Part shown: positions 167 to 23,211 of the stretch, piece by piece
Numbering within the stretch: the first letter of the stretch is position 1
Layout of the letters: each line of letters starts with the position of its first letter
Origin: a virus
Reading direction: 5' to 3' (one strand)
DNA length: 41,393 nucleotides
Virus record (IMG/VR): IMGVR_UViG_3300023435_000048
Location: 1 to 41,393 of that record
Notes under the pieces: generated by a model
Told to the model about the DNA's origin: nothing
The model's input: the letters and a program-made list of their open reading frames with translations, nothing else
Databases searched by the model: none
Made by a program: the position numbers and the translations under genes

Positions 167-1241
167 TTTTACCGTGCGTTCCCTTATTTCCGCCACCGCC
201 TCCGCCACCGCCTCCGACTTTGACACCAAGAGCGTCACCACCGCCACCGCCTCCTGAATCACCCTTACCTCCATTTCCACCAAGAGCAACAGCACCATTA
301 CTACCCGCAGTAGTTGCTCCTAAAGCACCACCAGTACCAGCACCAGTACCAGTACCATCGGAACCAATAGTTCCAGAACCACCCGCTCCACCAGTAGAAG
401 CATAATGAGCAGCAGTATATGAGCCACCGCCTCCGCCACCGCCTCCTTTACCAGCAGACTGCGCACCAGCAGCTCCACCAACACCAAGACTAAAAGGCCA
501 ACCACCAATACCAGCAGCCCCACCGTTTTTCTGTGTTATCGTATTTGTTACGCTTATATTATCAGGCGTGATAATGGCGTTGACACCAACAGCAGTACTT
601 CCTTTACATTCAATAGTTCCGGCAACTGTTATGTTTGTTTTAACACCTAAACGTGTCCAAGCAGTTGTATCCCCTGTAAATCTAAGTATTCCAGTAGCAG
701 CTACTGTTACATTGTCATAGTCATATATTTCCCCACCTGGTAGTTCGGTTGTTATACCAGCTCCTACAGTTAAATCTCCTAACAAACCATAAGGCCAGCC
801 ACCAACGCAAGCTGTACGTATCCTTTTACCATATATATTACCGTCAACATATTTAAACTCATATACGTCTGTTTTTAAAACAGTCTGTGTAGGCGCACCA
901 GCAGCTTCCCAAACAACATAAGCAGGCCATGTTACTGTCTTGCTATCTGTCTCGGTTATAACTACAGTTATTGTTCTGTCAAATAGATTACTAAAAGTAA
1001 AAGCAGTATTAACGTCGATAAACTTCTTAAAGACCTTACCTAACGACCAATCTATATCTAAAGCAGCGATATTTTCGGTTTTATCGTCTTCTTTTTCAGT
1101 TATATTAGTCCAGTTAGTACCATCTGATACATAATAGAAGCCATCAGTTGTAAGTCTAACAACACGACCATCTGGTGCGTTTGCAGGCAGGGTCGCTACG
1201 TTTTCAAACTGAGCGCCTTTAAGCTCTCCGTATAGGTTCAT
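1..1241 (-). CDS. Glycine-rich adhesin/tail fibre-like protein (5' part, split by contig ends)
   Basis: The frame opens at an ATG at 1241 (MNLYGELKGAQFENVATL) behind an AGGAGA site, runs off base 1 and continues at 41228 to a TAG at 41038, giving about 476 residues once the overlap is joined. Residues 1-150 are an ordinary mixed domain. From about residue 240 the protein is dominated by glycine runs (up to eight in a row) separated by Ala, Ser, Asn and Thr. Glycine-rich domains of this kind form polyglycine-II helix bundles in some phage receptor-binding adhesins (for example S16 gp38). It lies in the structural block downstream of the capsid genes, so a virion adhesin or fibre tip is the best inference. 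Other glycine-rich virion proteins are possible. Confidence 0.75.
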   Translation of the reverse strand, partial: MNLYGELKGAQFENVATLPANAPDGRVVRLTTDGFYYVSDGTNWTNITEKEDDKTENIAALDIDWSLGKVFKKFIDVNTAFTFSNLFDRTITVVITETDSKTVTWPAYVVWEAAGAPTQTVLKTDVYEFKYVDGNIYGKRIRTACVGGWPYGLLGDLTVGAGITTELPGGEIYDYDNVTVAATGILRFTGDTTAWTRLGVKTNITVAGTIECKGSTAVGVNAIITPDNISVTNTITQKNGGAAGIGGWPFSLGVGGAAGAQSAGKGGGGGGGGSYTAAHYASTGGAGGSGTIGSDGTGTGAGTGGALGATTAGSNGAVALGGNGGKGDSGGGGGGDALGVKVGGGGGGGGGNKGTHGKNLYIRCGGTFDGTGGTITVEGSNGVAGGNGGNGDAALGGAAGGGGGGGAGGSAGK

Positions 1242-1253
1242 AAATCTCTCCTG

Positions 1254-1748
1254 TTATACTGCGGTTAAATATCCACCATCTATCCCTTCATACTCTACAA
1301 AAAACTTCATCGCAGCAGCGATAGGTGCGTCAGTGGTTGTATAAACCCACTGTATGTATGTAGCGACGGCTGGTTTTTGATTTATTGTAAATGCAAAAGG
1401 AACTATAGGCGTGTTACCTTCTAGCACCCCCGCTAATACTCCGTCTAAAAAGCCAGCATTAGCTGCTGCTGCTGCGTATTTAATAACAAGCGCTCCAACA
1501 ACAGCCGTACTCATTACGAGAGTTGTTGCTTTAGTTAAAGGAACATCTGCTCCATCACGTAGATTAAAATGGCAGTCAGTCATGTTCGCTAGTGTTGTAT
1601 CGTCTGTAACAATACCGTAGATCTTTTTAACACAAACCTTTCCTACAACACTGAACAGATTAATGGCCTCAGTAGCAGCGCTACCAGCCAAAGCCTTAGT
1701 TACTTCTAATCTTATTGGAAGTGCAAACCCTGAATATGTGTTACCCAT
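1254..1748 (-). CDS. Probable virion protein, 164 aa
   Basis: The gene encodes a 164-residue Ala/Thr/Val-rich protein (MGNTYSGFALPIRLEVTK) without cysteine-rich or catalytic motifs. Its start codon overlaps the stop of the preceding gene in a TAATG junction, so the two are translationally coupled. Its position directly between the capsid-associated genes and the glycine-rich protein, and its beta-rich composition, suggest a small structural component such as a decoration or fibre-attachment protein. I do not recognise the family, and no membrane segment or signal peptide is convincing. Confidence 0.6.
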   Translation of the reverse strand: MGNTYSGFALPIRLEVTKALAGSAATEAINLFSVVGKVCVKKIYGIVTDDTTLANMTDCHFNLRDGADVPLTKATTLVMSTAVVGALVIKYAAAAANAGFLDGVLAGVLEGNTPIVPFAFTINQKPAVATYIQWVYTTTDAPIAAAMKFFVEYEGIDGGYLTAV

Positions 1749-2143
1749 TAGGCACCTACCCTAAATGCTTGTTTGATGGTTAAATCTGCATCGTCGGCTC
1801 CACCTGTTGCAGCTATATATTGCCATCTTAGCCATTTAAAGTTACTTAGTTTCTTTAGTTCGTCTTGTACTAGGTGGCGTGTCGTTACACCAGCTCCACA
1901 TACGTAATTAGCAACACCAAAAGTGTCTAGTGTCACATCAACATAATCAGTAGCGGTTGCAGTAGTCGTCGGGGTAGCATCGTCTTCCATAGTCGCCCAT
2001 ATCTTAAGAGTTACCGTACCCGTTCCACCGTTACCTATTAATTCCCATGCAACTTCACTAAACCCATCAGGGCTTTGTGCCTTTGTTAGATATGTTGCGT
2101 CTGCCATGTTTGTTACATTCAGCAACTCTTTTCGGAATATCAT
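1748..2143 (-). CDS. Probable virion protein, 131 aa
   Basis: I chose the ATG at 2143 (MIFRKELLNVTNMADATYL) because an AGGAG sits about ten bases upstream. An in-frame ATG further upstream at 2197 would put the preceding hairpin inside the gene and lacks a good ribosome binding site. The 131-residue product is Thr/Ala/Asp-rich, with a beta-rich middle (TVTLKIWATMED) and a basic C-terminus. It is coupled by TAATG to the next gene. The family is not recognised. Context places it among capsid-associated or tail-base proteins. Confidence 0.6.
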   Translation of the reverse strand: MIFRKELLNVTNMADATYLTKAQSPDGFSEVAWELIGNGGTGTVTLKIWATMEDDATPTTTATATDYVDVTLDTFGVANYVCGAGVTTRHLVQDELKKLSNFKWLRWQYIAATGGADDADLTIKQAFRVGA

Positions 2144-2167
2144 AATAATTAATCTCCTGTTAATCGA

Positions 2168-2189
2168 GGCTAGGAGTTTCCCCCTAGCC
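2168..2189 (-). promoter_or_regulatory. Intergenic hairpin with CTAGG arms
   Basis: GGCTAGG at 2168-2174 pairs with CCTAGCC at 2183-2189 around an 8-base loop, between the stop of the 410-residue gene and the ribosome binding site of the next. There is no U-tract, so it is not a classic terminator. A related element follows the capsid gene at 3456-3487, and both are preceded on the minus strand by the same TAAATTAAAYGGT context. Confidence 0.5.
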
Positions 2190-2202
2190 CCAACCATTTA
2201 AT

Positions 2203-3435
2203 TTACGCTAGAGGTCCTACTTTATAACTCATCAACTCCATAGTTAATGGGTTACCAGCAGCTCTCAAATAACTAATAAACGGTAGAACAACCTCAGCAG
2301 CATCAAATGCAAAGCCTGCTACAGCGTTGTTGTACTTTGTCATAGTCGTTGTGTTTATACCAAAGTAGAATGTTGCTGCACTTGCGTATGCAACACTTAC
2401 AGGGAATTGAGTAGTAACACCGTGAGATGTAGCATCGTCATCATGGCCTTTAAACTTTGTCTTAAGGTCATTAAGATATGTTATACATTCTGTCAAAGTC
2501 GTCGGAGCAGCAGCAGTTACTAGAGAATCGTCTCCACTTTCCTGAGCATCATGGTAAGCCCATGCAGCTCCTAATTCAGAATCATCTTCGTGTACATCAT
2601 ACTGAGTCAACTGGTCTGTAACCAATGCTATCAAAGTCGTAAGGTCCGTTGCGTTAGCAGCAGTTATTACGTTAGTAGCATCAGCAGCAGTCGTGTGTTG
2701 AGCAGTATTGGCTATGTGCCTTGTGTAAACTGCCTTTAGAGAGTTAGAAAGAGCTATCGCACTTGATAGACCAACAGCAACATCGTACTCTACTCTTGTA
2801 GTAATGTACTCTGTGTCTCCTACGTTCAACGCCGTATCAGCGGTAGCTGTCGTGCCGTTGTTAAGAATTGTAGTGATTACAACGTCACCAGCGTCTACAT
2901 TCACAGCGCACATTTCGTCATAATCATTATAATCAGGACGATGTGCTTCTGCCTTTCTAAATCCCACTAAGAACGTATCTGTTTCAGCTACAGCGGATAT
3001 TTTTACCTTGGTTTCAAAGTAAAATCTGTCCGTTCCTGCTGTAAAGACGTGCTTTGCGTAGTAAGCAGCTATACCCTGGTTTATTTCAAAACCTTCATCG
3101 TTAGTTGCGTCACCGCTGAAGTCCCAGCCATTAGCTGTCTGCAAACCTTGAAAAATAGTCTGCGTAGAGATGTTTGTTACTTCAAAGCTATTACCTGTAA
3201 TAGTTTTGAGAACATTAACACCAGTATCCGTGTCGGCAGCAGCTCCGCCACCTTTAAGTGACCAATCAAAGTAACCGAAGAAATTTTCGTCGGTTTCTAA
3301 CTGGTCTATATTCTTCTGTTTCAAATTCTTTGGTTCAGCTAGTTCTGTACCTAGCCCTCTTTGGTACTCAGGATAACCAATCGCATTTAGATCGTATATC
3401 GCTGATGCGCCAAGTTCTGTATTTCTTCCACTCAT
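2203..3435 (-). CDS. Capsid-associated structural protein, 410 aa (decoration/head fibre candidate)
   Basis: This 410-residue protein follows the major capsid gene and starts at an ATG behind GGAGG. Its first 65 residues are Asn/Glu-rich, and a beta-rich middle follows. Between about residues 235 and 350 it carries a His/Asp-rich helical segment with repeated H-x(n)-H patterns (YTRHIANTAQH, YDVHEDD, FKGHDDDATSH), a pattern I associate with phage structural proteins. Position and size suggest a capsid decoration or head-fibre protein made in large amounts. The gene is bracketed by two related intergenic hairpins, which fits separate tuning of its expression. The assignment rests on context. 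Confidence 0.6.
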   Translation of the reverse strand: MSGRNTELGASAIYDLNAIGYPEYQRGLGTELAEPKNLKQKNIDQLETDENFFGYFDWSLKGGGAAADTDTGVNVLKTITGNSFEVTNISTQTIFQGLQTANGWDFSGDATNDEGFEINQGIAAYYAKHVFTAGTDRFYFETKVKISAVAETDTFLVGFRKAEAHRPDYNDYDEMCAVNVDAGDVVITTILNNGTTATADTALNVGDTEYITTRVEYDVAVGLSSAIALSNSLKAVYTRHIANTAQHTTAADATNVITAANATDLTTLIALVTDQLTQYDVHEDDSELGAAWAYHDAQESGDDSLVTAAAPTTLTECITYLNDLKTKFKGHDDDATSHGVTTQFPVSVAYASAATFYFGINTTTMTKYNNAVAGFAFDAAEVVLPFISYLRAAGNPLTMELMSYKVGPLA

Positions 3436-3455
3436 TTTATACCTCCGTATTGGAG

Positions 3456-3487
3456 CTAGGGCAAAGGTTCTGTACCCTCTACCCTAG
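3456..3487 (-). promoter_or_regulatory. Intergenic hairpin after major capsid gene
   Basis: CTAGGG at 3456-3461 pairs with CCCTAG at 3482-3487 in the gap between the capsid gene stop and the GGAGG of the next gene. On the minus strand the element is preceded by TAAATTAAACGGT, nearly identical to the sequence before the hairpin at 2168-2189. There is no U-run. RNA processing, stabilisation or partial attenuation are possible roles. Confidence 0.45.
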
Positions 3488-3497
3488 ACCGTTTAAT

Positions 3498-4829
3498 TTA
3501 TATCGCTACGCTGTGAATTATAGAACTAGCTTCTGGACAAACATTTATCAAGTCGCCCATAAACGCTATATCTACAATGTACGAATAACCAGTTGTTGCT
3601 CTTGCTTCAAAATACTTAATCTTACCAGGGTTGGTAGGATCTTCATGGAACTTAAAGAATCCATTAGATGCAAGAATCATTGACTCCCAGTTTACACATG
3701 GAATTATATCGTTAGCCATTTCAGGGACCATAGATATTGAAAGCATATCTCCGCCCTTAGAACCAACAGTTATTTCCTTCCAAGAATAAGGGCTGGCTTT
3801 CGCATTTCCAGGCTCAGTGAAATACTGACCTTTGTACTTTTCAAGAGCTATCTTTATAGCAGCATAGTTCTTAGGTGATACAAGACAGTTATCAGCCTGT
3901 TTTCCGTTTAGTCCCTTAGCCTTGATTGATGTTTCAAGAGCGTGTATGTAAAACAACTTCTCTAGTATGTTAGCAGAAGTCATCGCATAATCGCCAGCAG
4001 AACCATCAATGTTAAGAGCCTGTAGGAACGGATAAGCAGTCTTTGTTTCTCCGTATAGAGTAGCGCCACCACCATTAGCAGCAGTTAGAAGAATACTTCT
4101 AAGTGAGCTAAAGGTGTTCTGGATTGCTCCAGTACCAGTGTTTACTAGACCGTCGTAATAAAGCACATCGCCAACCAAAAGAGCAGCAGTCAAAGGACCA
4201 CCGGCTGTTACGTCAAGAACAGCTCCACCAGCTCTGGTTGTGTGTAGTGTTATTGTTCCAGCAGATTTGTTAATCACCTGGATATAACCATCTACAGCAG
4301 ATGGTGTTGCAGCTTCTCGAACGACTATCTTTTGTTTTAATGTAACTTTTTCAATTCTATCTATCTGAACAACTCCGTTTGCTGCATCTGTAAGAGCAAT
4401 AATAGTTGCGAAGTGTGGTCCACCTAGAAGAACATCACTTAGTCCCATTTTAACAAAACTAAGAAAAGGATCTACCTGTCTCTTGATAGAACCTAGTAGG
4501 GAAATTTCCCTCTTTTTGCCTTCATGTTGCATGAAGTCCTTGCTGTGGAACATCATTGAACCCCAAAGCTCAGGCTGTACGTCTACCGTACCTCTTACGT
4601 CCTGGTCTTCAGCTATGTCACCAGCAGCAGTTAAGCTACCAAATGTTACCGAGCTGGCACTTCCACCAACAAAAGGTACTACATAACCCTGGGTAGCGTT
4701 TCCACCAACCCATGAATCGTCTTTCTTTACTTTATCTAACAGGAACATTCTCTTAGGCAGTTCGGCCCTGAGAACTTCTGTGGTTAGATAATCATTTATC
4801 ATTGCTTGAAATGATCTCGATGTCGCCAT
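3498..4829 (-). CDS. Major capsid protein
   Basis: This 443-residue protein lies directly downstream of the acidic scaffold gene, the standard place for the coat protein in scaffolded podovirus-like phages, and is close in length to P22 coat (430 residues). The N-terminus (MATSRSFQAMINDYLTTEVL) is helical. It is followed by a region rich in Gly/Ala/Thr and a C-terminal stretch with SPKNYAAIK and a beta-rich tail. The start ATG follows GGAGAAATATT. No signal peptide or membrane segment is seen. It would assemble the head around the scaffold and portal. Family assignment is by position, size and general pattern rather than a diagnostic motif. Confidence 0.85.
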   Translation of the reverse strand: MATSRSFQAMINDYLTTEVLRAELPKRMFLLDKVKKDDSWVGGNATQGYVVPFVGGSASSVTFGSLTAAGDIAEDQDVRGTVDVQPELWGSMMFHSKDFMQHEGKKREISLLGSIKRQVDPFLSFVKMGLSDVLLGGPHFATIIALTDAANGVVQIDRIEKVTLKQKIVVREAATPSAVDGYIQVINKSAGTITLHTTRAGGAVLDVTAGGPLTAALLVGDVLYYDGLVNTGTGAIQNTFSSLRSILLTAANGGGATLYGETKTAYPFLQALNIDGSAGDYAMTSANILEKLFYIHALETSIKAKGLNGKQADNCLVSPKNYAAIKIALEKYKGQYFTEPGNAKASPYSWKEITVGSKGGDMLSISMVPEMANDIIPCVNWESMILASNGFFKFHEDPTNPGKIKYFEARATTGYSYIVDIAFMGDLINVCPEASSIIHSVAI

Positions 4830-4852
4830 AATATTTCTCCTTTATGTTTATT

Positions 4853-5902
4853 TTATTCTTCTTTCAGTTCCTTTATTATTCTGTCGTAATCTGCGACAGA
4901 CTTGACTTTCCCAGTACGTCCTGAACTTCCTGAACTCTTAGGGTTAGGAATAGATTTACTTGCGTTTGGAGCTACGACCTTTTTAACTGTCTGATTGGCT
5001 TTATCAGCAGCCCCAGGCGTGTAAATGGTTTTGTACTTTTCAAATACAACCTTTACTGCTTCATCAGGCTGGATTTGCTTTCCGGCTTTATACTGACTAT
5101 CTCCGTACAAATTAACCTCGTTCCTAAAAGAATCTGCGCCAAACTTGCTGTCGATAAACTTCGCAACATCTGAAACCTCAGTCTTACTAAGTTCAAGGTC
5201 TATCCGTGCCTGGATAGCATTGTACTCAGCAGTCTGAGCTTTCTTAATTATGTCGTTCATCTCGTCTTGCTTGCCATAGCTGTCTCTGCTCTCAGCAGAC
5301 TCTTTTTCTAACCTGTCTCGTTCATCAGCAGGGGCCTGATTAAGTCTTATAAGATGCCTGGCTGCCTCTAGTATGTCTTCGTCTGAAAACGTGGATCGCA
5401 CCGCATCGGTTTTTTTACCATCTTTATAGAGTTTCAACGGAACATCAAAAATATCAGAATAGGTTTTAGTCTTTTCTGTATTTTCTTCGTATTTAGACTT
5501 CCAGTTATCTCTACTTTTCTGAGCAGTTTCCAACCCATACGCCTTAGTATAGATGTCTCGGATTTTGTCCTCAACTTCCTTACTCTTAATTACGTCTTTA
5601 AATTCAGGGTCAATCTCGTATTCTTGGTCATGCACCTTGAACTTATAGTTAGGCGTGTAGGTATCCGTAGATGTTGTTTCTTCGGATTGTTCCGTGGACT
5701 CCTCTGTAGTTTCTTCTGTGGATTCTTCAGAAGTCCCCCCAGTCTCTCCATCGGTTTTAGCTTCTACCTCTGTAGATTCCTCTGTTTCGGTAGCTTCTAG
5801 CGTTGTAGTCTCATCAGTGGTTTCTTCACCAACGTCTACACCGGCTTCTTTCTGCAATTCAGCAATCTTGTCATCTAGTGGATTTTTCTGATCCTTACTC
5901 AT
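4853..5902 (-). CDS. Capsid scaffolding protein
   Basis: This is a 349-residue, highly charged protein. Residues 20-85 are a low-complexity Glu/Thr/Ser run, the middle is helical and Lys/Glu-rich, and the C-terminus has a basic patch (SSGSSGRTGKVKSVADYD) followed by a short acidic helix. Scaffolding proteins typically bind coat protein through a small basic C-terminal helix-turn-helix, which matches this layout. The gene sits between portal and coat genes, as in P22-like phages, and its ATG overlaps the portal stop by one base (TTTTAATGA). No protease domain is seen, so the scaffold is probably expelled intact. Confidence 0.85.
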   Translation of the reverse strand: MSKDQKNPLDDKIAELQKEAGVDVGEETTDETTTLEATETEESTEVEAKTDGETGGTSEESTEETTEESTEQSEETTSTDTYTPNYKFKVHDQEYEIDPEFKDVIKSKEVEDKIRDIYTKAYGLETAQKSRDNWKSKYEENTEKTKTYSDIFDVPLKLYKDGKKTDAVRSTFSDEDILEAARHLIRLNQAPADERDRLEKESAESRDSYGKQDEMNDIIKKAQTAEYNAIQARIDLELSKTEVSDVAKFIDSKFGADSFRNEVNLYGDSQYKAGKQIQPDEAVKVVFEKYKTIYTPGAADKANQTVKKVVAPNASKSIPNPKSSGSSGRTGKVKSVADYDRIIKELKEE

Positions 5903-8058
5903 TAAAATGCTCCTGGCGGGGTGGCTGCCCCTGTGTTATTTACTCCGCCTGCTGGCGTTGTATTCAATATATCAATCTTGGTCTGTGTCCCTGCGTCGTT
6001 TAAAACTTCCATCTGAGAACCTTGGTCTCCCAATCGCTTTATGAACCACTCAAAACTTGTCTGGTCTACGGTAGCCCTTATGCTCTTGGCTGGGTTTTTA
6101 GGGTCAGGGATGTAAGCATCTACTTTAATCTGAGGTCCACCAGTAGGGATAATACCCATATTGGCGTTTTTAAGTTCTTCTGCCTTTTGATTAAGAACTC
6201 CTACTCTATCCTCATACTGTCTTTGATAGTTCTGCTCTATTTCTGGGTTTTTACTTACAACATATTTAAAATCAGGCTGTCTCATCCTTCTAACAAGTTC
6301 TTGTACGATTACTTCGTTATTATCAAACGAAGACGACATAGGCATCTCGCCTCTATCCAACTGTAGAATTATGTTCTCCGCTTCAGTATGTGCTAGAGAT
6401 AGATGAGCTGCGATCCTATCGCCGTCTACAAATGGAAGTTCTTTTATCAACATTCCAGTAGTTCTTTCGTCTAATTTACCGTATTGCATTACTTGTGTTA
6501 GTGTTAGATGTTTAGCCATAACGCTTTCTGTGTCATCATTAAGAGGTACAACCTTTATGTCGTAACACATATCGTTTACGTTCTTAAATTCTTCTACGTT
6601 TATAGCCTCGTTACTGCCTACAGCCTTAACCAAGGCATCATCTCTTAGATTAGCTTTATATAGCCTAACTACTGCATCGGCCCAATCAACTAAGAATCTT
6701 TCAATCTTATCTGAATAGAAGGTAAACTTTTTCTTATCCTTCATGGACATATACAGTTTTAATGTAATATCCTGGGCGTGTTGGGTTTCTTCAGATTCAT
6801 CCTGGATACCCATTATCGTATATAGCTCTTTAATCTGGTTAGTAACGTAACCTAAGTATTGCTCGCCACTTCTACCTTCTACTACCTGATAATTAATAGC
6901 GTTAGATACTTTTATCTGTCTTATACCGTTTAGTTTCTCGCCTTCTGTTAATCCAGTTCCTTGTAGGGTAATAATCTTGTCGTCACCTAAAGTAATCTGT
7001 GTCTCGGCAATCTTGCTAGACGCTCTGTTTATCTCGGCCTGTACTGGCCTACCCTGTTTCATCGGAGAATAACCACGAGGCGAACCTTCAAATTCGTCGC
7101 ATAGAGCGGACTTAATTGGGAATACGGGTTTTCCTTTTTCGTCAGTTTGTAGTTCGCCTTCCCATAGGATTCCTGCGGAAGTGGTTATGTAAAAATATCC
7201 AAGAGGATATTCTATACTCGGTCTGTAATAATATTCTTTAGTAAGTGTCTGATCGTCTGGATAATTAACAGTCGTATCCAAAGGGTTAAACACTGAGTAT
7301 GTTTCTTTACTAGCTGCATCTATATATGCAATTCTATCTATTTTTTCTTCTGCTGTGAAAGTCGGATCATTATTAACCATCAACTTCAATTCAGAAGTCT
7401 GAACCATCTTTTTCACGCCAACAAAAACAGATTCTTCTATGGTTCTCGCACCTTTATCAATAAATACATCAAATCCTGATGTTACCTCGGTTAATATCGC
7501 CCCACTCATTACAGGTTTGCTTTCATCTATTGCGGGCTGGCCTGTCTCGTCAGCGAGTTGATTACCTTCCTCGTCAACTAATGCTTCGTATCCTACTAGC
7601 TCTCCGCCACTTGCGTCCCAGAGTATTTTAACGTGACATTCTCCAGGTATAAAAAATCCTTCTACACAGCGTCGTACTTTTTCTGTATAACGAGATTTGT
7701 ATTTATAATCATCAAATACACTACGAGAAAGTTTAGCTTGTTTTATATCGTGTACGTTTGTTGAGTCTTTAGGAAGGATTGTCACGCCAGGAGCATACGA
7801 CAGCGTTGAGTTTATGTACTTTTTCATTATCCTGTTAAGATGGTTTTTAGTTAAACGTATCTTAACATTCTCTGGAATATTTTTCGTATCTCTTAGTCTT
7901 GAATATAATTTAGAATTTATTTTGGCGTAATGATTACCAGCGTAAAGCATTACATTATGTTTTTGCTCGTCGTAATGGGACTGTGTGTTCTGTACGCTAT
8001 CCCTGTAAATCTTCTCCAGTTGCGTTATCGTTAAATTCGGCAAACTCCATCTCCCCAT
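5902..8058 (-). CDS. Portal protein (P22-like size class)
   Basis: The 718-residue product matches the large portal proteins of P22-like phages (P22 gp1 is 725 residues). Features consistent with a portal are the N-terminal helical start with YAGNHYAKI, a beta-rich wing, a long helical crown region near IKELYTIMGIQDESEETQ, and a charged, disordered C-terminus ending in TTPAGGVNNTGAATPPGAF. It would form the twelve-fold ring at one capsid vertex through which DNA enters and leaves. The gene follows terminase and precedes scaffold. Its first 62 bases overlap the end of the preceding small gene in another frame. Confidence 0.88.
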   Translation of the reverse strand: MGRWSLPNLTITQLEKIYRDSVQNTQSHYDEQKHNVMLYAGNHYAKINSKLYSRLRDTKNIPENVKIRLTKNHLNRIMKKYINSTLSYAPGVTILPKDSTNVHDIKQAKLSRSVFDDYKYKSRYTEKVRRCVEGFFIPGECHVKILWDASGGELVGYEALVDEEGNQLADETGQPAIDESKPVMSGAILTEVTSGFDVFIDKGARTIEESVFVGVKKMVQTSELKLMVNNDPTFTAEEKIDRIAYIDAASKETYSVFNPLDTTVNYPDDQTLTKEYYYRPSIEYPLGYFYITTSAGILWEGELQTDEKGKPVFPIKSALCDEFEGSPRGYSPMKQGRPVQAEINRASSKIAETQITLGDDKIITLQGTGLTEGEKLNGIRQIKVSNAINYQVVEGRSGEQYLGYVTNQIKELYTIMGIQDESEETQHAQDITLKLYMSMKDKKKFTFYSDKIERFLVDWADAVVRLYKANLRDDALVKAVGSNEAINVEEFKNVNDMCYDIKVVPLNDDTESVMAKHLTLTQVMQYGKLDERTTGMLIKELPFVDGDRIAAHLSLAHTEAENIILQLDRGEMPMSSSFDNNEVIVQELVRRMRQPDFKYVVSKNPEIEQNYQRQYEDRVGVLNQKAEELKNANMGIIPTGGPQIKVDAYIPDPKNPAKSIRATVDQTSFEWFIKRLGDQGSQMEVLNDAGTQTKIDILNTTPAGGVNNTGAATPPGAF

Positions 8059-8359
8059 GCTCTAGCTTTTCCATGAAAGCACTGGGATCGTCTATCCCGA
8101 GTGTTGCATCTACTAAGTCAGAGTCTTCGTCAGTTTGGGTGTTAATAGGGTTTGTATCTTCGGTGGGCGGAGTTTGCGACTCTTGTGGGGGTACGTTTAA
8201 AGAACTAGCGTTTGGAGAGAACTTTACGAGTAATTTTCCGTACGCTAGTTCTGATACCCCTAATTTACCACCATTTTTAATTATCCATAGTATTTCTTCT
8301 TTTTCAATACTTTTTTTAAAAGAAAACCATTTTTTTATTGCTTTTAGGATTTTTTTCAT
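7997..8359 (-). CDS. Small basic/acidic protein between terminase and portal, 120 aa
   Basis: I chose the ATG at 8359 (MKKILKAIKKWFSFKKSIE), which follows GGAGAGTGAAA. An earlier in-frame ATG lies inside the terminase gene without a good site. The protein has a strongly basic amphipathic N-terminal helix, a Pro/Gln-rich linker near residues 65-80, and an acidic C-terminal half. It overlaps the portal start by 62 bases. Family and function are unknown. Its bipartite charge and position suggest a helper in head assembly or packaging. Confidence 0.6.
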   Translation of the reverse strand: MKKILKAIKKWFSFKKSIEKEEILWIIKNGGKLGVSELAYGKLLVKFSPNASSLNVPPQESQTPPTEDTNPINTQTDEDSDLVDATLGIDDPSAFMEKLEHGEMEFAEFNDNATGEDLQG

Positions 8360-8361
8360 TT

Positions 8362-9873
8362 TCACTCTCCGTATTGTTCGTTCCATTCTGCCATTTCAGC
8401 CTCTATAGACTCTTTAACCACTTCAGTATTTAACATCCCTTCCCTTCTTTGGTCTACTTCTGATTTTTGGGGGTTCTTTGTAACATTTACAATTTTACTG
8501 TCGTCTATGTCACTGTAGTCCCATGGTATCTTACTACAACTATACCTTAATCCATCGGTGTAATCATCCTTAGCCTTGTTCTTAGGCGTTCCTACCTTTA
8601 AGGCTAAAAGTTCGTTCCTTAATGGTTGAAGTTCGGGAGTATCAAATATAAAGAGTTTGCTGTTCTTAAATAGTACATTTAGGATACCTTCTCCTAGATC
8701 GTGTGACTTTTCGGCTGGTTGAAGTCCTGGTATTACGCCCATAGAAATCATGCCAAAATCCTTGGCGTGCCAATCATAATATGAAGCGATTGGGTTTAAC
8801 CCCTTAACCATCTCCATATATTTGTCTTGTATATCCTTATTGGTCGTGATTATTTTGTCCCCACGCCAGCCACGGAATATATAGCCTATTTTAAAATCAT
8901 GTCTAACCGCCACCAATACGCACGCAGCAGGATGGTTCACACCACCACTACCTATATCTATACCTCCGTATATGTAGTAGTCTTTACCTATATCTATGGG
9001 CTTAACCATGTTAGTTGAAGGATCGAAACTTTCGTACACTCTACCTTCTGATATACCGAACTTACCATAAACCCTGGTCTGTACTTCTGCCAAAGTAGGA
9101 TAACTATTGATAATCCTGTTAATTCTACGTTCTGTCCATGTACTAGGGGTGTCATCTTCATATTTCATACAATCAAAAAGAGATATTTGTTTCTTATATG
9201 CGTCTTTGAATAATTCCTTGTCTCCTTTTTCTTCCATAGCACATCGCCATTCTTCTTGGCATAATGTAGCCGTGAAAACCATGTTAAAATATCCGTCAGT
9301 TGCGTTAGTTCTACTTGTCACTTCGGAATACAAATCGTATGGTAACTCCTCATCTACGAAGCAAGCATAAACAGTCAATGATTGCAGGTTCATAGCCTTC
9401 TGGGAATAGAACTTAAAAACAATCATCACTCCACTATTAAAAGTAAGGGTTTCGATATTTCCGTTCTTATAAGTTTCTTTCCATCCATATATAGGATGAT
9501 CTTTATACTTCCCACTTGGTAGGTACTTGCTCCACTTGACTTCAAACTCTACAGTAGCGGTTCCACCATCAGGGTATAGATACCAGAACAGGCGTGTCTT
9601 ATCTGACTTCAAGCTCTCCCACTGGGAAGCCCAAAGAATAGGCCAAAGCTCAGGACTGGTAGCCCAAGTGATACATTTGATAATGTTCATTGAGCTTTTG
9701 CCAATTTGGTTTGCTGCCGTAAGAAGGCACATCTGATTTCTACAGTCTATGAACTCTCTTTGCCACATATACAGTCTATGGGCGTGTAGATGTGGCAGTC
9801 CTTCGGTTAGGTCTTTTTTCTGTTCTAAAAGGGCGAGTTTCTCCTTATATATGGATAACTCTTTGTCACTCAC
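8362..9873 (-). CDS. terL: Terminase large subunit
   Basis: This is the 503-residue packaging motor, an ATPase plus nuclease. A Walker A-like loop AANQIGKSS lies at residues 53-61 and a Walker B segment VYACFVDEE at 168-176. The C-terminal RNase H-like nuclease shows YGGIDIGSG (302-310) with the first acidic residue at D306, YYDWHAKD (365-372) and DDYTDGLRYS (436-445). This order and length are typical of phage large terminase subunits. It would dock on the portal, cut concatemers and drive DNA into the prohead. The gene start overlaps the preceding small gene by eight bases and is followed by the portal module. Confidence 0.95.
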   Translation of the reverse strand: MSDKELSIYKEKLALLEQKKDLTEGLPHLHAHRLYMWQREFIDCRNQMCLLTAANQIGKSSMNIIKCITWATSPELWPILWASQWESLKSDKTRLFWYLYPDGGTATVEFEVKWSKYLPSGKYKDHPIYGWKETYKNGNIETLTFNSGVMIVFKFYSQKAMNLQSLTVYACFVDEELPYDLYSEVTSRTNATDGYFNMVFTATLCQEEWRCAMEEKGDKELFKDAYKKQISLFDCMKYEDDTPSTWTERRINRIINSYPTLAEVQTRVYGKFGISEGRVYESFDPSTNMVKPIDIGKDYYIYGGIDIGSGGVNHPAACVLVAVRHDFKIGYIFRGWRGDKIITTNKDIQDKYMEMVKGLNPIASYYDWHAKDFGMISMGVIPGLQPAEKSHDLGEGILNVLFKNSKLFIFDTPELQPLRNELLALKVGTPKNKAKDDYTDGLRYSCSKIPWDYSDIDDSKIVNVTKNPQKSEVDQRREGMLNTEVVKESIEAEMAEWNEQYGE

Positions 9874-10123
9874 TTGCTTCGTTCTGATCGTTCTTTTCTG
9901 GATTTTCTTCTTTTTCTGCTGTTTTTACGTTTTCAATCTTTTTGCCTTTCAATAGGCAGATTATGTCCTCAATCGGAGTCGAAACGGCGATTTCGTTCTC
10001 TGGACTTTCCACATTGGCATACGTAATCTTACAACCCTTGGCTTCTTCCTCAATACTTGCGCAATGATCGGTATTGACCAAAATCTTCCTTTCACTACCT
10101 AGTCTTTTTAATGATAAAATCAT
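9866..10123 (-). CDS. Hypothetical protein between terminase genes, 85 aa
   Basis: An 85-residue protein (MILSLKRLGSERKILVN) begins at an ATG that overlaps the small-terminase stop (ATGA) and has AAGGAGG upstream. The first 60 residues look like a small compact domain with two cysteines. The last 20 are a Glu/Lys/Asn-rich tail. It overlaps the large terminase start by eight bases, so all three are translationally coupled. No family is recognised. Confidence 0.6.
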   Translation of the reverse strand: MILSLKRLGSERKILVNTDHCASIEEEAKGCKITYANVESPENEIAVSTPIEDIICLLKGKKIENVKTAEKEENPEKNDQNEASE

Positions 10124-10815
10124 TTTGCCTCCTTTTTCGTGTTTGTTATCGCTAAGGCTGGTATCTGACCGTCCAGCTCCTTAATGCGTTTTTCTATCTC
10201 CTCTAAACTCAGTTCATGTCCGATATTTACTCTTAATTCCTTACTTTCGCTCCTTTGTATTGGAGTACCCTGGAGCCTATCTTCCATTTGCTTAATAGTT
10301 CGTAGTTTTAAACTAGCCAGGGTGGTATCAAACCTCCCCTCTTTATCAACACACGGCTGGTCTAGTATTTCTTTTATGACCTTACTACCATACTGGCTTA
10401 GGATTGAATTAAGCCGAGCCTCATACTTCATTATAGGTTTAAGTATAAACGAAAACGAGTATTGGTTATTAATTAGGCGTGACATTTGAGAGCTTGTGCA
10501 TATCCCGTCGATGATATTAGCCCTTAACATTTTTCGCCCACTACTTCGGGCGGTCCAATACTCTAGCCAGAACCCTTCTCTGACAGAAGTAAGAAGTTCT
10601 ATATCCTCGTTAAAGTTCTTCTTCAGCTCGCTAACGTCCATGATAAAAATATCGCCTGGAATAGCAATCATTTTGTCTCGCATACCAAAATCCATACTAT
10701 CAGCCAAGTCTGACTGACCCATAGATAAGACTACCGACCCATCAGAAGTCAAAACCTCCATTGGGGCATCAACTTTTACCTTATACTTTGTCTTATCTTT
10801 AGGAGGTCTACCCAT
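10120..10815 (-). CDS. Terminase small subunit (probable)
   Basis: This is a 231-residue protein, first gene of the late block, two genes upstream of the large terminase. It starts MGRPPKDKTK. The middle contains a helical region compatible with DNA binding (NIIDGICTSSQMSRLINNQY), and the C-terminus has a charged helix (SLEEIEKRIKELDGQ) of the type used for oligomerisation or contact with the large subunit. Small terminase subunits recognise the packaging site and vary greatly in sequence, so the call relies on position and architecture. The start ATG follows AAGGA about ten bases away. Confidence 0.65.
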   Translation of the reverse strand: MGRPPKDKTKYKVKVDAPMEVLTSDGSVVLSMGQSDLADSMDFGMRDKMIAIPGDIFIMDVSELKKNFNEDIELLTSVREGFWLEYWTARSSGRKMLRANIIDGICTSSQMSRLINNQYSFSFILKPIMKYEARLNSILSQYGSKVIKEILDQPCVDKEGRFDTTLASLKLRTIKQMEDRLQGTPIQRSESKELRVNIGHELSLEEIEKRIKELDGQIPALAITNTKKEAK

Positions 10816-18460: not shown

Positions 18461-18474
18461 TAGTGAGGTCAAAT

Positions 18475-19356
18475 TTGGATAAAACTAAAGAAAAAAGGAG
18501 TAGTTGGAATAAGGGCATCCCACATACCGAAGAAACCAAAAGAAAAATATCTGAAAAAGCTAAAGGGTGCAAAAGAACTTTTTCTGAAACACACAGAAAA
18601 AACCTTAGTAAAGCAGGAAAAGGTAGAAAGATGCCAGACCATGTTAGAGAAGCACTCCGCAAAGCTCATTTAAACAAAGTTATAACACAAGATACACGTA
18701 AAAAAATGAGTGAGTCTGGGAAAGGCAGGGTTTGCTCTATAGAGACTAGAAAAAAATTAAGTCAAGCTAATACAGGAAAAAAAATATCAGAAGAAACTAA
18801 AGCTAAAATTAGAGAAAAGAGAAAACTTCAAATTTGTTCTCAAAAAACAAAAATAAAAATGGGCAATTCTCGTAGGGGTAAAAAGCATACAGAAAAAGCT
18901 AAAAAAAAGATAGCAAATTCTCACAAAGGCAAACACCCAAGCCCAAAAGAACTTGAGCGTATTAGGCTAATGAATAAAGGAAGAAAACACCCACCAAGAT
19001 CAGAAGAATATAGGCAAAAGTTTAGAGGAGCAAACAATCATGCTTGGAGAGGAGGAACAACTCTAATAACAGACAAAATAAGACTTAGTGATAAATATAT
19101 AGAATGGAGGCAACAAATTTTTATACGTGATAATTTCACTTGTCAAAAATGTAAAAATAAATCTGGATGTAAGTTAAACGCCCACCACATAAAACCGTTT
19201 AGAATATTACTTAGGGAAGCCAGAGATTATATACCTCTTTTAGACTTGTATAGCGCTGCCATGATTTATACCCCAATGTGGAGCCTTAATAATGGACAGA
19301 CATTGTGTGAAAGATGTCACAAAAAAACAAGGACATATGGAACTAGCAAGAGTTAG
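18475..19356 (+). CDS. NUMOD3-repeat HNH homing endonuclease
   Basis: The N-terminal two thirds carries about ten tandem NUMOD3-type units of some 17 residues, such as GIPHTEETKRKISEKAKG, GRVCSIETRKKLSQANTG and GKKHTEKAKKKIANSHKG, which bind DNA. After GANNHAWRGG comes an HNH nuclease: DNFTCQKCKN...LNAHHIKPF...LNNGQTLCERCHKKT, with two CxxC zinc knuckles. This is the architecture of free-standing phage homing endonucleases. Start: TTG at 18475 has GAGGT in front; a GTG at 18463 would add four residues without a good site. The gene is A-rich and probably mobile. Confidence 0.9.
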   Translation: MDKTKEKRSSWNKGIPHTEETKRKISEKAKGCKRTFSETHRKNLSKAGKGRKMPDHVREALRKAHLNKVITQDTRKKMSESGKGRVCSIETRKKLSQANTGKKISEETKAKIREKRKLQICSQKTKIKMGNSRRGKKHTEKAKKKIANSHKGKHPSPKELERIRLMNKGRKHPPRSEEYRQKFRGANNHAWRGGTTLITDKIRLSDKYIEWRQQIFIRDNFTCQKCKNKSGCKLNAHHIKPFRILLREARDYIPLLDLYSAAMIYTPMWSLNNGQTLCERCHKKTRTYGTSKS

Positions 19357-19382
19357 ACAATTAGCTCTGTTTGTGGTATAAT
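19354..19382 (+). promoter_or_regulatory. Sigma70-like promoter for secreted-protein gene
   Basis: TAGACA (19354-19359) overlaps the homing endonuclease stop codon and is followed after 17 bases by a perfect TATAAT (19377-19382). Start would be near 19390, ahead of the ATG at 19418. This makes the secreted-protein gene an independent unit. Confidence 0.65.
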
Positions 19383-19417
19383 AACAAGGTGGGCTGGTTT
19401 TTAAACAGGAGGTTTTT

Positions 19418-19654
19418 ATGAAGTGTTTAGCAATCTTAATGTTTTTAGTATCGACAAGTGTGATGGCTCAGACTTTGTATGCGCCAGATGGGACTTATCT
19501 GGGTAGGGTAAATAATAATAAATACGACCCAGACTCTATCAGTAATCCTTATGGGACTTACGGCAACAAATACTCGCCTAATAGTGTTAATAACCCATAC
19601 GGAAGATATGGTAATAAATACTCAAACCAGTATTCTAGTCCGTACGGAAATTAA
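19418..19654 (+). CDS. Secreted NPYG-repeat protein, 78 aa
   Basis: This 78-residue protein has a clear Sec signal peptide (MKCLAILMFLVSTSVMAQTL, probable cleavage after VMA). The mature part has 16-residue repeats, NKYDPDSISNPYGTYG and NKYSPNSVNNPYGRYG, plus a third degenerate unit NKYSNQYSSPYGN. The same SPxSxNNPYGxYG pattern occurs in short exported proteins of Gram-negative bacteria, whose function is unknown. It has its own promoter and AGGAGG ribosome site and lies between a mobile endonuclease and a structured leader, so it looks like a cargo (moron) gene acting in the host envelope. Confidence 0.75.
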   Translation: MKCLAILMFLVSTSVMAQTLYAPDGTYLGRVNNNKYDPDSISNPYGTYGNKYSPNSVNNPYGRYGNKYSNQYSSPYGN

Positions 19655-19667
19655 TTATTTTATTTAT

Positions 19668-19696
19668 TTGACTTTTTTTTTAAAGGGTGATTTAAT
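19668..19696 (+). promoter_or_regulatory. Sigma70-like promoter upstream of structured RNA
   Basis: TTGACT (19668-19673) and TTTAAT (19691-19696) are 17 bases apart. Initiation near 19702-19704 would begin the RNA exactly at the first arm of the structured region. Confidence 0.55.
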
Positions 19697-19702
19697 TTTT
19701 TT

Positions 19703-19820
19703 ATGCTAACGGTAACAAAATGTATCATTATTGGTTGTAACGACACTGGGATTTCTAATCCGTTAGCAACAGTGTCTTATAATATCAGGGTTAGGTTTTA
19801 TGAGCCTAGCCCTGTTTATA
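19703..19820 (+). ncRNA. Candidate structured leader RNA or small RNA
   Basis: Three helices can be drawn. Helix A: 19704-19712 (TGCTAACGG) with 19760-19768. Helix B: 19742-19748 (GACACTG) with 19770-19776, extendable by three pairs past a bulged C. Helix C: 19786-19795 with 19805-19814, ten pairs including one wobble and a 9-base loop, followed by TTTATATTT. A and B interleave (A-B-A'-B'), so they either form a pseudoknot-like fold or are alternatives. The promoter above and the terminator-like hairpin just before the next ribosome site suggest an attenuator, riboswitch-like leader or small RNA. It matches no class I recognise. Confidence 0.5.
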
Positions 19821-19834
19821 TTTGGAGGTAAGGG

Positions 19835-20191
19835 ATGAAGATACTAGATAACGCTATTGTAACAATGTGTGGTGAGTGTGATATGGTAAAATACGATACT
19901 TTTACACAAACTAATATATGTTGCCACCCTAAAATGAACCATAAAACAGAAACAGTTTGTAATTGTGATATTTCCAAAGACTGTCCCTTACAGGATTGTG
20001 AGGTGATAGATTGGCTTACTTTCAAACCTAAACTCACAAGTGTTTTAAATATTGAATTTCCAAACGAAATATACACAGGAGACACAGAAATAGTCCAAAA
20101 CCCTTATTTTGTGGCTTCTGAAGTATTTGGTTTTTTAGACAAAGAAATAAGCATAGAAAATTTGATGGAGGCAATTAATTGTTATGGCTAA
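19835..20191 (+). CDS. Cysteine-rich protein with KILDNAIVT N-terminus, 118 aa
   Basis: The N-terminal half holds seven or eight cysteines (CGEC, ICC, CNC, DCPLQDC), implying metal binding. The C-terminal half is acidic and helical. Its first 10 residues (MKILDNAIVT) are shared with the adenine methyltransferase at 24899 (MKIPDNAIVT), nearly identically at DNA level. The cysteine pattern is shared with the 83-residue protein ending at 11932. GGAGG precedes the ATG. Expression is probably controlled by the structured leader immediately upstream. The stop overlaps the replication gene start. Confidence 0.65.
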   Translation: MKILDNAIVTMCGECDMVKYDTFTQTNICCHPKMNHKTETVCNCDISKDCPLQDCEVIDWLTFKPKLTSVLNIEFPNEIYTGDTEIVQNPYFVASEVFGFLDKEISIENLMEAINCYG

Positions 20192-22434: not shown

Positions 22435-23211
22435 GTGAAAAAATATAAGGTACTAAACAAAGACAAGACTAGCCCGTTTAAAAACTTCAAGTACAAGCTA
22501 GGTAAAGAATATCATTGTCCAGAGATTGATATGTGTAAAAACAATGACTGTTCTTACGGACTGTATGCCACCAATTTAGAGGGCATATTGTATTCCAACC
22601 TATCCGATGGTAAGCAAGTTTACGAGTGTGAGGTGAGGGGTAAAGAGGTTGTTATAGACCAATTTAAACAGAGGTTTGAATACTTAAAATTGATTAGAAA
22701 AGTCCCGTTAAAAGAACTAGAACCGTTGCTTAAAAAGGAAAGCAAAAAATTGGGTTATGATTTGTATAGGGCTTTGATACCAGTTAATCCTTTAGCTTTT
22801 AAGCCAAGTAAGCCTACTAAAAAAGATATAGCAAACCTTAAAAAGTGGTACTCTGTGCGGGACTCTGTGGGGTACTCTGTGCGGGACTCTGTGGGGTACT
22901 CTGTGGGGGACGCTGTGCGGGACTCTGTGTGGGGCTCTGTGTGGTGCTCTGTGGGGGACGCTGTGTGGTGCTCTGTGGGGGACGCTGTGCGGGACTCTGT
23001 GTGGGCATATATATCAAGCCTATTTCCTGACATTAAGGAATGGAAGCATATAGACCACAAGAAAGGCATAAACCCTTTTCAGTCATGTATAGATTTATGG
23101 CACAGAGGCTTTGTACCAAGTTTTGACGGTGAGATTTGGAGGTTACATTCTGGTAAGAAAGCAGAGATAGTATTTGAAATACACAAAGACAAATTAAGGG
23201 AGGTAAAATGA
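22435..23211 (+). CDS. Phage protein with tetrapeptide repeats, 258 aa
   Basis: A GTG start (KKYKVLNKDKTSPFKNFKY after the initiator) follows GGAGGTAAA. Residues 1-138 form an alpha/beta domain. Residues 139-190 are thirteen tetrapeptides of the form x-(S/A)-V-(R/G/W), such as YSVR, DSVG, GSVW and DAVR. The C-terminal part (AYISSLFPDIKEWKHI...) closes the fold. Proteins with WASVRDSV-type repeats ending in AYIxSLFP are widespread and uncharacterised in phages. The repeats probably stack as a small solenoid, and unit number can change by recombination at the DNA level. Confidence 0.7.
   Translation: MKKYKVLNKDKTSPFKNFKYKLGKEYHCPEIDMCKNNDCSYGLYATNLEGILYSNLSDGKQVYECEVRGKEVVIDQFKQRFEYLKLIRKVPLKELEPLLKKESKKLGYDLYRALIPVNPLAFKPSKPTKKDIANLKKWYSVRDSVGYSVRDSVGYSVGDAVRDSVWGSVWCSVGDAVWCSVGDAVRDSVWAYISSLFPDIKEWKHIDHKKGINPFQSCIDLWHRGFVPSFDGEIWRLHSGKKAEIVFEIHKDKLREVK
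22849..23004 (+). repeat. 12-bp tandem repeat (13 units) inside gene
   Basis: Thirteen in-frame 12-base units such as GACTCTGTGCGG, TACTCTGTGGGG and GACGCTGTGTGG. They differ at the first codon (Tyr/Asp/Gly/Cys), the second (Ser/Ala) and the last (Arg/Gly/Trp), with the central GTG nearly fixed. Each unit encodes one tetrapeptide, so gain or loss keeps the frame. Confidence 0.9.

Follow-up and report, generated by a model that had tools for sequence, protein, structure and literature searches.

Does the short interval upstream of the replication genes in this phage genome encode a discrete structured RNA and, if so, what would that RNA do? The window, the 41,393-base viral record analysed here in full, apparently derives from a tailed phage, as terminase (8362-9873), portal, and internal virion protein genes were recognised in it. 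The plus strand between 15.7 and 25.9 kb encodes: a RecE-like exonuclease; an HNH endonuclease with a NUMOD3 motif; a DnaB-like helicase; a DNA methyltransferase; and a Holliday-junction resolvase. Within this region, the element is flanked 5′ by a small gene for a putatively secreted protein (19418-19654) and 3′ by a cysteine-rich open reading frame (Table 1). Taken in aggregate, the comparative and structural analyses suggest that the element is probably a real structured RNA of no known family.

Conservation in a second phage

A scan of IMG/VR with the pattern A-N30..60-A′, where A and A′ are the outermost complementary arms of the element, returned seven contigs. The whole element is present in two of these, L019 and L020; the remaining five matches are attributable to chance. 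L019 and L020 are 99.98% identical and represent one phage in two samples. The independent sequences of the block therefore number two, with one copy each in the window and the second phage record.

The block differs from its counterpart by 5 substitutions in 122 nt (96% identity), bearing out the conservation in related phages on which the original prediction of this RNA had staked itself. When the two loci are compared without gaps from an anchor at 19703, identity is 18-20 of every 20 positions across 19693-19822 and 4-8 of 20 downstream. Upstream, the count falls to 9-11 in the spacer between the promoter hexamers, recovers to 14-15 over the TTGAC/AT-rich stretch, and is 5-10 further out. 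The edges at 19701 and 19822 are sharp, with unrelated sequence on both sides, and these limits indicate that the conserved unit runs from the predicted transcription start to the terminator tail.

The sigma70-like promoter is present in the window as originally described. L020 carries TTGACA-N17-GATTAT, a 10/12 match, with the same placement, spacing, and distance to the block, and the bases between -35 and -10 are not conserved between the two. The -10 boxes are imperfect in both phages (TTTAAT in the window, GATTAT in L020), and the T at -10 position 2 places the window promoter just outside the criteria of the promoter scan.

The genes around the block have been replaced. In L020, the element is preceded by a 135-aa gene and followed by that of a replisome organiser (Phage_rep_org_N, 7.5e-26) and then DnaB; in the window, it is followed by the cysteine-rich open reading frame, an initiator-like gene, and then DnaB. 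Protein comparison detected no similarity between the window initiator-like protein and the L020 initiator, and homology downstream of the block resumes only at the DnaB gene. The element is thus just upstream of an initiator and DnaB in both phages, and the cysteine-rich gene is found only in the window. This gene has no Pfam or PHROG match, and a search for its relatives gave none. The element was first suggested to control the cysteine-rich gene, which is unsupported, as the second phage lacks that gene at this position; the replication genes may be under its control.

The element is far better conserved than the genes that the phages share: its 96% nucleotide identity compares with 65% amino acid identity (45% identity at fourfold sites) for DnaB and 47% identity for the terminases. 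A transcript-sized block that is nearly unchanged while the genes on either side are replaced makes a defined candidate for a new phage RNA family.

Table 1. Features of the element and of the genes 3′ of it, in window coordinates.
Feature	Position	Strand	Remarks
Sigma70-like promoter TTGACT-N17-TTTAAT	19668-19696	+	predicted +1 at about 19703; consensus match only
Conserved block, proposed structured RNA of about 120 nt	19701-19822	+	near-identical in L019/L020; sharp edges, unrelated flanks
Open reading frame (42 aa) coinciding with the block	19703-19831	+	open in both phages; probably not a protein gene
Arm A (TGCTAACGG)	19704-19712	+	complementary to 19760-19768 at every base; identical in the two phages
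Extended B helix, 5′ side	19734-19748	+	19734-19740 plus B 19742-19748; pairs with 19770-19783 in both phages
Inner hairpin H, GGATT-TCT-AATCC	19749-19761	+	folds together with B in both phages
Arm A′ (CCGTTAGCA)	19760-19768	+	19762-19768 inside the 3′ bulge of the B hairpin
Extended B helix, 3′ side	19770-19783	+	pairs with 19734-19748 in both phages
Terminator-like hairpin C and tail TTTATATT	19786-19822	+	13 pairs, 19786-19798/19802-19814
Cysteine-rich gene, 118 aa	19835-20191	+	directly 3′ of the terminator; second phage lacks it at this position
Putative replication-initiator-like gene, 219 aa	20184-20843	+	not homologous to the L020 initiator
DnaB-like helicase, 326 aa	20830-21810	+	DnaB_C 1e-17; common to L020 (65% aa)

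Predicted fold and substitution pattern

Both interleaved helices of the original prediction are exact: A (19704-19712/19760-19768) and B, in which GACACTG (19742-19748) is opposite CAGTGTC (19770-19776). The seven pairs first given for B form only the core of that helix. Seven further pairs (19734-19740 with 19777-19783) had been missed, and they yield a long hairpin, 19734-19783, with C19741 bulged. Hairpin C is likewise found at 19786-19795/19805-19814, with 13 pairs and not the ten originally counted; its L020 counterpart has 15.

The predicted fold common to both phages consists of: the extended B helix with its one bulged C; inner hairpin H; a 3′ bulge (19762-19769) in which most of A′ lies; and hairpin C. 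Seven pairs of arm A (19704-19710) are compatible with H. In this modelled fold, A as a 7-bp pseudoknot with the 3′ bulge is compatible with the extended B hairpin.

The single base between A′ and B′ had been raised as a steric objection to a pseudoknot. Considerations of A-form geometry argue otherwise. A′ and B′ could form a continuous strand of stacked helices, with the 11-base loop between B and A′ crossing the deep groove of A, and the single base would then pose no obstacle. The alternative reading as a two-state switch is weaker than originally put. A and B are indeed alternative nested pairings, but the B fold is better than the nested A fold by about 2 kcal/mol in both phages when the extension of B is counted, and a pseudoknot is sterically possible. 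Neither pairing competes with C, which dominates the predicted folds.

Two of the five substitutions between the phages, at 19726 and 19785, fall at unpaired positions. The other three lie in helices and retain pairing: G-U to A-U at 19737 and U-A to U-G at 19779, both in extended B, and A-U to G-U in hairpin C (A19793 to G). No pair is broken, an outcome with a chance probability of 0.18 for five random substitutions, or 0.10 with A counted. Compensatory changes in the arms were sought; none of the five substitutions between the two phages is double-sided, and covariation is unproven. The substitution pattern is consistent with a maintained fold, short of proof, and near-invariance extends to regions predicted to be unpaired. 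Together, conservation from +1 to the tail, the unrelated flanks, and the absence of any broken pair support the central claim of the original prediction, that this is a separate structured RNA equipped with a promoter and a terminator of its own.

Chance expectation and folding energy

Out of 5000 dinucleotide-shuffled versions of 19703-19834, 4 contained perfect interleaved arms in the order A-B-A′-B′ (at least 9 and at least 7 bases). Across the whole window, 6 interleaved combinations were listed at 3 places, as compared to a mean of 1.4 expected from 30 shuffles; because 1.4 such combinations per window are expected by chance, the arms by themselves establish nothing. Hairpin C is the best terminator-like site in the 14-kb stretch scanned, and the scan as a whole gave 6 such sites versus 7.7 by chance, that is, no excess.

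The original prediction also called for a folding energy better than that of shuffled sequence, and the answer depends on the segment. The whole region, 19703-19834, folds at -38.6 kcal/mol with a z of -3.3, and the whole L020 RNA has a z of -4.0. The window value is due mainly to C and the B hairpin. For the extended B hairpin alone (19733-19784), z is -3.7 in the window and -3.5 in the second phage. By contrast, z is -0.9 for 19703-19779, a segment whose cut at 19779 removes the extension of helix B; for the whole 5′ domain, 19703-19785, it is -1.4.

Searches for relatives and comparison with known RNAs

Searches by similarity, pattern, and structure were used. With blastn, the element found no relative in 50,697 phages, where matches were at chance level only, or in 72,556 plasmids. 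Exact A′-B′ patterns, which miss diverged homologues, found no relative in GTDB genomes. Searches of whole records gave no further element in 20 viral records, mosaic or terminase-related. A covariance-model search of the collected loci hit only the window phage and the L019/L020 phage. Finally, among the IMG/VR matches listed for the pattern TAATCCGTTAGCAACA, no relative besides L019/L020 was found: a few of the others are scattered, and the rest keep recurring in a single context, apparently a protein gene, that is unrelated to the element.

The original prediction had recognised no known RNA class in the element, and this is upheld. Neither the window nor L020 matches any of 4227 Rfam families at the gathering threshold, a permissive Rfam scan of 19600-19900 gave chance-level hits only, and tRNA and tmRNA scans of the window were negative.

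Three kinds of described RNA are nevertheless instructive. The put RNA of the lambdoid phage HK022, an antiterminator that causes RNA polymerase to ignore terminators, is about 70 nt long, forms two stem-loops, and occurs in two copies, putL and putR (PMC9378689). It functions as nascent RNA at the transcript start and acts in cis on RNA polymerase (PMC9378689). Like put, the element is a phage RNA of comparable size (about 80 nt plus terminator) at a predicted transcript start. Unlike put, it is predicted to fold as one long, bulged hairpin and a terminator, with a possible pseudoknot, and it is present in a single copy per phage.

Type III toxin-antitoxin loci (ToxI, CptI) have the order promoter, pseudoknot RNA, Rho-independent terminator, and gene (PMC5086642), and the element shares this order, its RNA being pseudoknot-capable. 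In contrast to these loci, it lacks direct repeats of about 34-36 nt before its terminator, and the gene that follows is not a ToxN/CptN/TenpN endoribonuclease; it is the cysteine-rich open reading frame in the window and the Phage_rep_org_N initiator in L020. With neither repeats nor toxin gene, a type III antitoxin RNA was rejected.

The third kind comprises attenuator and riboswitch leaders in general, in which a promoter, a structured leader, and an intrinsic terminator stand just before a ribosome site. Sequence and consensus scans place the same features in the same order in both the window and L020. The element differs from known riboswitches and leaders in having no Rfam match and no identified antiterminator pairing. 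It is therefore assigned to no described family, put and type III antitoxins included.

Proposed function and alternatives

Transcription, termination, the pseudoknot, and a regulatory role are here inferred from sequence. RNA polymerase would start at about 19703, as placed by the promoter. The nascent RNA would then fold into the long hairpin of extended B and inner H, and its 3′ bulge, GUUAGCAA, may pair with the 5′ end (UGCUAAC) to give the predicted pseudoknot. Next, polymerase would meet the intrinsic terminator C, the tail of which stops immediately short of the next gene's ribosome site. The majority of transcripts would stop at C, leaving a fraction to continue into the initiator and DnaB genes of the replication module.

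The reading that we tentatively prefer, at somewhat less than even confidence, is that this promoter-proximal noncoding RNA of about 115-120 nt is a cis-acting leader that works by attenuation to set the replication-operon dose, a short released RNA being the by-product. A cis role is slightly favoured over a free small RNA because the neighbours have changed and the placement ahead of the DnaB module has not. Several points weigh against this reading: there are two independent sequences only, with no double-sided change and a chance of 0.10-0.18 that no pair is broken; the -10 boxes are imperfect; the high identity could reflect recent exchange of a segment rather than constraint; and no antiterminator pairing able to displace C, and so to serve as the switch of an attenuation scheme, was found. 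Were the element to control read-through or act on host RNA polymerase, it would constitute an RNA-only control step in phages of an uncultured group.

Nearly as likely as the leader, and its strongest competitor, is a free small RNA that acts in trans, either by pairing with phage or host mRNAs or by binding a host protein such as RNA polymerase or a defence protein. Its own predicted promoter and terminator, its isolation as a conserved cassette between unrelated flanks, the near-invariance of regions predicted to be unpaired, and the differing gene directly after it would all suit such an RNA. The retained place before the DnaB module in both phages is harder to reconcile with a free RNA, and a crude comparison of the element with the start regions of window genes gave no strong pairing (best z -2.0 of 56).

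An unlikely, bolder proposal is that conserved host machinery is the target of a pseudoknotted RNA outside all described families. Such an RNA might, for instance, serve the replication operon as a factor-independent antiterminator in the manner of put, or be a decoy against host defence, and phages would exchange it as a cassette of promoter, RNA, and terminator.

The original prediction had missed the open reading frame that coincides with the block. If this were a leaderless small gene, translation would begin at the 5′-terminal AUG at 19703 and yield a 42-aa protein (MLTVTKCIIIG...). It is kept as a rival because its ATG lies at the predicted +1 and because in each phage its stop adjoins the start codon of the next gene: in the window an ATG follows after 3 bases, and in L020 a GTG overlaps the stop. 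The frame is open in both, the L020 product (43 aa) being 86% identical. The substitutions point the other way. Four of the five are nonsynonymous (C/Y, Y/C, I/S, R/G) and one is synonymous, over about 92 nonsynonymous and 28 synonymous sites, and the 17 comparable fourfold sites are identical in the two phages. Replacement sites are thus not better conserved than synonymous sites between the window and L020, the reverse of protein conservation, which indicates constraint at the nucleotide level or neutrality. In addition, a strong terminator lies inside the frame, tblastn found no similar protein in phages, and there is no Pfam match. A protein gene is accordingly rather improbable.

Recent exchange of a segment with an ordinary terminator and chance arms, with no function beyond termination, is very improbable. 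Such exchange is possible because the phages are mosaic and a second region, 22435-23211, is also about 90% identical at the DNA level; the chance expectation of 1.4 interleaved arms per window also accommodates it. Against it, the block begins at the promoter start and ends in the terminator tail, its arms are what stays invariant, and arms like these came up in just 4 of 5000 local shuffles. The gene at 22435-23211 encodes a 258-aa protein with SVRDSVWGSV-type repeats and a weak DUF7666 match. Its identity to the L019/L020 copy is far above that of other shared genes, and the repeat number differs.

Least probable is a DNA element, with inverted repeats next to the replication genes serving as a replication origin or as a binding site for protein: its place before initiator and DnaB and the 9-bp inverted repeat would fit, but the downstream initiators are unrelated though the element is 96% identical, there are no iteron-like repeats (the element matches neither itself nor the rest of the window beyond short chance words), the block edges fit a transcript and not repeat ends, and the changes to or from G-U in helices are of a kind that an RNA fold tolerates. 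An initiator-bound origin was rejected, as the initiators of the two phages are unrelated. A mobile element with terminal inverted repeats was also rejected, as the arms differ from the block ends.

Neighbouring genes and related records

The region 5′ of the element (19354-19654) contains a strong promoter-like site, TAGACA-N17-TATAAT (11/12, extended -10), followed by the gene for the putatively secreted protein. This 78-aa protein carries NPYGxYGNKYS repeats and has relatives in seven other viral contigs; the locus looks like a separately expressed accessory gene. In the viral contigs L009 (5278-5351) and L010 (5358-5431), a tRNA-Trp gene lies closely 3′ of the relative. Upstream of the accessory gene, 18463-19356 encodes the HNH endonuclease with the NUMOD3 motif, which is homing-endonuclease-like and has no counterpart in the L020 loci compared.

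In another viral contig (L004), a permuted tmRNA (3855-4308; ARAGORN, Rfam RF04321) is located just upstream of a replication-initiator-like gene. Finally, two IMG/VR contigs, L144 and L145, match the window at 99-99.9% identity over its structural region (1100-10275), a stretch that does not cover the element; they are the phage of the window in other samples.
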